Source: Planctomycetota bacterium (GTDB lineage Bacteria > Planctomycetota > UBA8742 > UBA2392). Taken from it: 64,000 nt of DNA. Under the pieces are notes generated by a model, which had not been told where the DNA came from, made no database searches, and saw nothing but the letters and a program-made list of their open reading frames with translations. Shown here in pieces: positions 38,493 through 39,303 of the stretch. Numbering within the stretch: position 1 is the first letter of the stretch; each line of letters begins with the position of its first letter. The translations under genes were made by a program, and so were the position numbers. The DNA lies in assembly GCA_020848275.1 (NCBI GenBank), contig JADLAK010000041.1:1-64000 (forward strand), read 5' to 3'.

Positions 38493-38572
38493 GGCGGCGG
38501 AGGATAGAACGTGCAGTAACAGAACGCGAAGCGTAAGCTCGCCGGCCAAACTGTCGAAGTTGGAGAAAAATC

Positions 38573-39277
38573 ATGTCGGGCATGAGGCTATCAGCCATGT
38601 TTACGGCGCTGCTCACCCTGCTGGTCGGTTGCAGCAGCGCGACGACCGGAGGGGATTCTATGGCGTCCGGGCTGCAAACCGCCTTCATCAAGGTCAGCGG
38701 GATGACCCGCATCGAGGGCATCACGTGAGGCGGCTGACCGGATTCGGTCCACGAAGCCCTGGAAGGGCTCCACGGGGTGAAGTCCCTCGAAGTCAACCTC
38801 GGTACGGACACGTTTGCCGTCCACTACGCGCCGGCAGAAGTGTCTGTCACTGAGATGTTCCACGCTATCGAGGCGCTGGGCTATTCGCCGCAATCGGTGA
38901 AGTCATTGGGCATCGTGGCGCCGGCCGATGGCGCGCGGCTTCCGTTGGCGGGTTTTTCGCCCGAGATGCGGGCGCAGATTCAGCGTGCCACCGCGGAACA
39001 CAGACTGTTGTTGATCTACATCCACGGCCACGGCTGAGGCGCCTGCTCAAAAATGGATACCGTGACGTATCCAGAATCAGCTGTTGCAGAATTGATCTCG
39101 CAGCGCTTCATCGAGCTCAGGCTCGATGTGAAGGAGCACGCATCGCTGGTCAAACAAGTGCGCGTCAACGCCATTCCGCTGGTGATTGTCGCGCGGCCCG
39201 ACGGCGAAGAACTTCACCGATTTGAAAATTTTGTCCCGCCAGCGGATTTCGTGCGCAGGCTCCAAGCCATCAAATAA
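38573..39277 (+). CDS. Multi-selenocysteine lipoprotein: heavy-metal-associated domain fused to thioredoxin-like domain
   Basis: 234 residues if three in-frame TGA codons (38726, 38735, 39035) are read as Sec. GGAG precedes ATG 38573. The N-terminus is a lipoprotein signal (lipobox LVGC, C20). Residues about 36-105 match a heavy-metal-associated fold: GIT-U52-GG-U55-PDSVHEAL replaces the usual GMTCxxC, then GVKSLEVNL and AIEALGYSPQ. Residues about 143-232 match a thioredoxin-like fold: LLLIYIHGHG-U155-GA-C158-SKMD, then YPESAV, the NAIPLVIV cis-Pro strand and PDGEEL. Hairpins with SECIS-like spacing lie at 38755-38769 and 39055-39072. Probably a periplasm-facing metal- or thiol-handling redox protein. 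Frame and fold continuity across all three TGAs argue against a pseudogene. No Sec machinery is in the window. Confidence 0.85.
38755..38769 (+). promoter_or_regulatory. SECIS-like hairpin for Sec codons 52 and 55
   Basis: AGCCCT/AGGGCT 6-bp stem with loop GGA. The loop begins 32 and 23 bases after the first and second TGA. This fits the bacterial SECIS rule (loop 16-37 bases away with G in its first two positions). A shorter stem (GACCG/CGGTC) sits just before it. Confidence 0.55.
39055..39072 (+). promoter_or_regulatory. SECIS-like hairpin for Sec codon 155
   Basis: GGATAC/GTATCC 6-bp stem with loop CGTGAC. The loop starts 23 bases after the TGA at 39035-39037 and has G in its second position, as expected for a bacterial SECIS. 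Confidence 0.55.
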
Positions 39278-39303
39278 AACGCGCCCCGCAAGCGGGGCGC
39301 GTT
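39278..39303 (-). terminator. Terminator between convergent selenoprotein and ferredoxin genes
   Basis: AACGCGCCCCGC/GCGGGGCGCGTT stem with an AA loop. On the minus strand it is followed by TTATTTGA, so it best serves the ferredoxin gene. It begins at the selenoprotein stop codon and may act in both directions. Confidence 0.75.

Follow-up and report, generated by a model that had tools for sequence, protein, structure and literature searches.

A predicted selenoprotein family of Planctomycetota joins a Sec-Sec heavy-metal-associated domain to a thioredoxin-like domain in a predicted lipoprotein

The window analysed here is a stretch of 64,000 nucleotides from a Planctomycetota bacterium (assembly GCA_020848275.1, contig JADLAK010000041.1, positions 1 to 64,000). 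On its plus strand, a coding sequence for a protein of 234 amino acids (38573..39277) runs from an ATG at 38573 to a TAA at 39275-39277, provided that TGA is read as selenocysteine (Sec, U). The frame is open throughout and is interrupted only by three TGA codons, at 38726..38728, 38735..38737 and 39035..39037, which would encode Sec52, Sec55 and Sec155, respectively. A Shine-Dalgarno-like GGAG (38562..38565, plus strand), as read from the sequence, is located 7 nt 5' of the ATG. Directly after the TAA, an 11-bp terminator-like hairpin (39278..39303, without strand assignment) separates the gene from a convergent 4Fe-4S ferredoxin gene. On the other side lies a divergent gene, which we take to be trmB.

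The predicted protein starts with a lipoprotein signal peptide, MSGMRLSAMFTALLTLLVGC (38573..38632, plus strand), ending at the lipobox Cys20. The lipobox, LVGC at residues 17-20, was recognized by inspection; its Cys is kept in all 11 homologues that span the site and is nearly invariant in an alignment of 12 members of the family described below. Residues 46-104 (38708..38884, plus strand) form a heavy-metal-associated (HMA) domain in which U52-G-G-U55 replaces the usual CxxC (PF00403, E 1.3e-11, 45.1 bits for a Pfam cut-off of 24.8). It is followed by a thioredoxin-like domain (38972..39265, plus strand), of the Thioredoxin_7 or DsbD C-terminal type and carrying U155-G-A-C, for which the match to PF13899 covers residues 134-207 (E 1.1e-6, 29.1 bits for a cut-off of 27). 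At the structural level, the HMA part of a family profile is matched by MerP (1afi) and CopZ, and its thioredoxin-like part by the gamma domain of DsbD (2fwe, E 1.6e-15). An AF2 model built from a 7-row alignment reached pLDDT values of about 80-94 over most of the thioredoxin-like domain and was poor for the HMA domain. Contacts between the two domains were therefore left uninterpreted. A first-pass annotation, made from the sequence alone, had proposed the continuous frame through these same three TGA, the U-G-G-U and U-G-A-C folds and the lipoprotein signal, all of which hold, as well as hairpins at SECIS-type distance. None of the conditions set for its refutation, namely the absence of a Sec machinery, homologues ending at 38726, or homologues lacking Cys or Sec at the three sites, is fulfilled.

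A search of 60 relatives and 392 genomes of the phylum retrieved about 30 full-length fusions of an HMA and a thioredoxin-like (Trx) domain, all from Planctomycetota and each with two to four in-frame TGA; every one of these loci comes from a genome assembly. With identities of 30-39%, the full-length homologues continue the frame through TGA at identical alignment columns, and none of them ends at 38726. This confirms that the three-TGA frame is not a product of chance. In the alignment of 12 fusions, all Cys/Sec sites and the core columns of both domains are invariant. Position 52 is TGA in 31 of the 31 TGA-type fusions, with no Cys among the Sec-type fusions; at position 55, 30 fusions have TGA and a single one (G162) has TGC (Cys). 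At position 155, TGA (16 sequences) and Cys (15 sequences) are almost equally frequent, a distribution that requires at least two changes on the tree. The UxxU of the HMA domain persists in fusions that have a Cys at the thioredoxin site. Three fusions contain four Sec (L112 in G304, L114 in G172 and L120 in G197), the extra TGA being found in the motif IPDTUILG, where it adjoins the cis-Pro of the Trx domain. When HMA-only and Trx-only relatives were aligned together, the two active sites were superposed, and this alignment was left unused. In a tblastn search of plasmids, only HMA domains were matched, and these came from metal ATPases among the matches listed. A separate, widespread family of small thioredoxin-like selenoproteins, with the motif U-x-x-C-x-KMDTVTYP, was also observed in several phyla (L047, L048, L049, L050, L051 and L057); it occurs in lipoprotein and cytoplasmic forms.

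Published limits for bacterial SECIS elements are a stem of 4 bp or longer, a loop of 3-9 nt having a G within its first two nucleotides, a spacing of 16-37 nt and an MFE of -7.5 or below (PMC13188914, Fig. 2 legend). These limits are met for all three UGA of the window, at distances that bear out the earlier proposal. Hairpin 1 (AGCCCU-GGA-AGGGCU, 38755..38769, plus strand) lies 23 nt past U55 and 32 nt past U52 and is common to both codons. Hairpin 2 (UGGAUAC-CGUGAC-GUAUCCA, 39054..39073, plus strand) lies 23 nt past U155. Single-sequence folding energies and z-scores of the window hairpins are not significant with respect to shuffled sequences, and no relevant Rfam match was obtained, either for the whole window at the gathering level or for the gene alone at a permissive E-value. 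Because the folding energies alone are unremarkable, the weight of the SECIS evidence comes from conservation and covariation; synonymous-codon controls and covariation were therefore used in place of single-sequence z-scores. Across 28 sequences, six pairs of hairpin 1 undergo double changes, amounting to 17 double-changed cells, a count reached by none of 500 shuffles; the signal is lost when the partner strand is slid. Three further genomes (G249, G186 and G239) have, instead of hairpin 1, a different hairpin slightly nearer to the UGA. Hairpin 2 is present in the Sec-type homologues and absent from the Cys-type ones, with a higher stability in the former (Mann-Whitney p 0.003). In the four-Sec subgroup, the stem located in the same zone has another sequence. 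In the closest relatives, the Trx hairpin is bulged, so that it was missed by a scan restricted to perfect stems and was recovered with RNAfold.

That the window copy is a decayed gene, or an assembly artefact with three chance stops, might be feared of a draft, metagenome-like assembly of 111 contigs. Such an explanation is very hard to sustain in the face of TGA columns that are identical in about 30 genomes with the frame open between them, of conserved hairpins with double compensatory changes, and of Cys at homologous positions. Conservation rules it out.

The source genome (G000, 88% complete, 111 contigs) possesses a complete Sec machinery, with selA, selB, selC and selD all present. 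The tRNA-Sec has a UCA anticodon (70.8 bits) and shares its contig with SelA (E 4.9e-140). SelB is full length (E 4.3e-91), and SelD itself carries an in-frame TGA at its known Sec site (HGAGUGCK). More generally, SelB was detected in 27 of the 30 genomes having a TGA-type fusion, as compared with 234 of the 392 genomes of the phylum sample (Fisher p 1.8e-4); the three fusion-bearing genomes without detected SelB are incomplete assemblies (64-85%). The in-frame reading of UGA could in principle also reflect its reassignment to Trp or Gly in the source organism. However, homologues carry Cys, not Trp or Gly, at the UGA sites, and the complete Sec system also speaks against a changed code. Furthermore, TGA terminates several of the homologous genes and is an ordinary stop in the window, where it ends 5 of 25 long ORFs that look coding, so that the code cannot simply have been reassigned. 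A code change is contradicted by these data and deserves next to no credence. The same genome encodes another predicted lipoprotein, with the Sec thioredoxin motif FTGEFUVPCRRLD and a longer C-terminal region (contig C48, 22462-22695, L016).

Each module of the three-Sec protein has known counterparts. The closest is the UxxU metal-binding (seleno)protein NF041115, which corresponds to the putative mercuric reductase family of a recent inventory (PMC13188914, Table 1). Residues 46-106 align with this model (E 1.8e-15) through the HMA-type U-x-x-U. In contrast with the fusion, NF041115 describes a stand-alone protein of 74 residues without thioredoxin domain or third Sec, and its cut-off is not met (56.8 versus 95 bits): the module is shared, membership is not. 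MerP, MerTP and CopZ (TIGR02052, NF033556 and NF033795) have in common with the three-Sec protein the HMA fold and the position of the ligand pair, and MerT partners occur beside its relatives. They differ by a Cys pair in place of the Sec pair and by the lack of a fused thioredoxin and of a lipid anchor; the cut-off of TIGR02052 is not reached (27.5 versus 92.55 bits), nor are those of the two other models. In the MerT/CopZ fusion-like heavy-metal transport selenoprotein NF045683, Sec occurs in an HMA/CopZ portion that is attached to a MerT-like transporter, whereas in the present family the Sec-containing HMA is fused to a thioredoxin; only a weak match to the HMA part of that model was obtained (E 0.024). 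On the thioredoxin side, Sec-containing thioredoxins and thiol:disulfide interchange proteins (PF00085, PF13098) are also listed in the inventory (PMC13188914, Table 1). These proteins and the C-terminal domain of DsbD share the UxxC thioredoxin-like fold, but are single-domain or DsbD-type with one Sec, and the three-Sec protein adds a Sec-Sec HMA domain. Finally, the arsenite methyltransferase/AhpD selenoprotein NF041537, the other bacterial three-Sec family listed (PMC13188914, Table 1), resembles the fusion by its three Sec per chain only, its domains being unrelated.

Among the 119 prokaryotic selenoprotein families inventoried in 2026 (PMC13188914), there is no HMA-Trx fusion and no three-Sec family except NF041537, and no model of NCBIfam 20.0 spans the HMA and thioredoxin domains together. 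Since the fusion is missing from both and its modules are known, the HMA-Trx Sec fusion combines them into an architecture that is new at the family level; the fusion is real, its novelty lies in architecture and context, and its function is inferred. The double fusion with three Sec, which the first-pass annotation had considered unusual, is thereby confirmed as an architecture, with the refinement that it represents a family conserved across the phylum and not a one-off.

The gene neighbourhood of the relatives gives indications on function. Within a few kb of the fusion, a MerR gene is found in 14 of the 31 homologous loci and a complete or partial zf_CopZ-MerT-HMA protein in 11; one or both accompany the fusion in 16 loci. 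Most of the fusion-linked MerR retain a Cys ... Cys-x8-Cys layout, which is that of the Hg(II)-sensing MerR. The MerT adjoining the fusions is mostly encoded by a separate, Cys-type gene. In one locus, however, the link is covalent, a single polypeptide having the organization zf_CopZ-MerT-HMA(CxxC)-HMA(UxxU)-Trx (L127, 4056-5888). A related single polypeptide, in which zf_CopZ, MerT and HMA are joined to an HMA-Trx unit, contains Cys at all sites (L118, 4050-5996). Other loci have a metal P-type ATPase (L108) or an RND pump (L109) near the fusion. No MerA was found among the neighbours put through Pfam, no dedicated MerA search having been made, and PADLOC found nothing. Further genes with in-frame TGA were observed in this neighbourhood. 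A small HMA selenoprotein with the motif NGFL-U-x-x-C-P is encoded directly upstream of the fusion in three loci (L063, 6333-6563; L066, 7721-8068; L067, 7856-8218). In three others, genes for HMA or MerT-HMA proteins have TGA in frame close to the ligand pair (L109, 5173-5544; L108, 5532-5963; L071, 4906-5841), with the motifs GMTUPDGUGTP, GLEULPUVKAV and GMTUPQSCP, respectively, two of which have an unusual three-residue spacing.

Considering this MerR/MerT context and the MerT-fused chains of the relatives, the best reading is that of soft-metal binding coupled to redox chemistry. In the proposed mechanism, SelB and tRNA-Sec would insert Sec co-translationally at the UGA codons thanks to in-frame SECIS hairpins located 3', with one hairpin for both codons of the UxxU pair. 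Once exported and lipidated, the protein would be tethered in the cell envelope, a location inferred from the lipobox only. Sec52 and Sec55 of the HMA domain would then hold a soft metal ion, as two Cys do in MerP or CopZ, but would bind ions of the Hg(II)/Cu(I)/Ag(I) type far more tightly than a Cys pair; both the coordination by two Sec and the identity of the metal are inferred. The DsbD-like Trx domain, by means of its Sec-Cys pair, would keep the Sec-Sec pair reduced and/or free the metal from selenol/thiol complexes, an electron flow between domains that is again an inference. The premises demonstrated, on sequence grounds, are the reading frame, its conservation, the SECIS structure, the Sec machinery and the operon context of the relatives. 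We give a probability of roughly 0.65 to a genuine three-Sec, envelope-tethered lipoprotein whose UxxU HMA domain binds a soft metal and whose thioredoxin domain acts as reductant and/or in metal release. Since very tight Sec-Hg binding could slow down transfer, a sequestering or redox role instead of metal transfer is possible.

The window copy itself stands alone, with neither MerR nor MerT beside it, and a profile search for the zf_CopZ-MerT protein in the 16 genomes of its family gave none, positive controls being recovered in four genomes at E below 1e-150. The metal role of this copy is therefore an inference that rests on its relatives, without metal, selenium, expression or biochemical data. 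This absence of metal-transport neighbours leaves room for a genuine three-Sec protein acting purely as an envelope thiol/selenol oxidoreductase. The UxxU would form a diselenide shuttling electrons to or from the Trx domain, for instance in peroxide or disulfide reduction, with no metal involved; the resemblance to the gamma domain of DsbD and the exchange between Sec and Cys at position 155, typical of a redox site, agree with this idea. We nevertheless consider it unlikely in view of the ties of the relatives to MerR and MerT and of the location of UxxU in a MerP/CopZ-type metal domain, where it persists beside a Cys thioredoxin site.

Copper has to be considered too, as Cu(I) is often the ion carried by such HMA domains (matches to CopZ and Cu-ATPase profiles). 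The protein could be a copper chaperone or reductase for the assembly of an envelope copper enzyme, the thioredoxin domain reducing the metal-binding pair. The zf_CopZ of the linked transporters and a YHS-domain gene near one fusion copy (L072) would fit with such a role. On the other hand, no oxidase-assembly genes were seen beside the fusion copies examined, and the recurrent partners are MerT and a Hg-like MerR, so that a copper-assembly function appears improbable. Overall, the earlier interpretation as a three-Sec metal/thiol-redox lipoprotein is supported, its function being inferred. Of the suggested metal or thiol redox chemistry at the outer face of the membrane, a soft-metal role is favoured because relatives lie in MerR/MerT operons; the outer face is not established, only a lipoprotein signal being visible.

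Sec may not be confined to the metal-binding and thioredoxin proteins of these loci. In two of them, the MerR gene beside the fusion (L063, 5944-6333, plus strand; L066, 8004-8378, minus strand) has an in-frame TGA (UGA112), which falls exactly in the alignment column of the Cys that opens the Cys-x8-Cys pair, a metal-ligand position, and homology runs on past it. A conserved hairpin, GCAGCGGUCGCUGC, follows the TGA: the codons CGC AGC GGT CGC TGC, identical in the two genes, form a perfect hairpin there, when before the TGA the codon is shared at only 21 of 60 identical residues. This suggests that the two MerR are candidate Sec-containing metal sensors, with the reservation that only two cases are available. 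It may be imagined that Planctomycetota have a selenium-based detoxification module for soft metals of the mercury type. In it, Sec would replace the metal-contacting Cys of the envelope UxxU HMA domain, of the UxxC thioredoxin, to which some members add a fourth Sec adjacent to the cis-Pro, of an accessory HMA protein and, for two genomes, of MerR itself. This remains a tentative proposal, to which we give somewhat less than even odds.

Few bacterial selenoproteins have three or four Sec per chain, and discussions of Sec mostly treat it as a catalytic residue. The occurrence, in MerR/MerT operons, of a Sec-Sec pair at a metal-ligand site together with a Sec thioredoxin allows the idea that Sec can be a metal ligand to be put to a direct test. 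As standard gene callers stop at the first UGA, the HMA-Trx Sec family has likely been overlooked in annotation. Sec decoding could also be usefully studied on a single SECIS that serves two UGA nine bases apart. Should the selenium-based soft-metal module prove real, a transcription factor with selenocysteine would be part of it.
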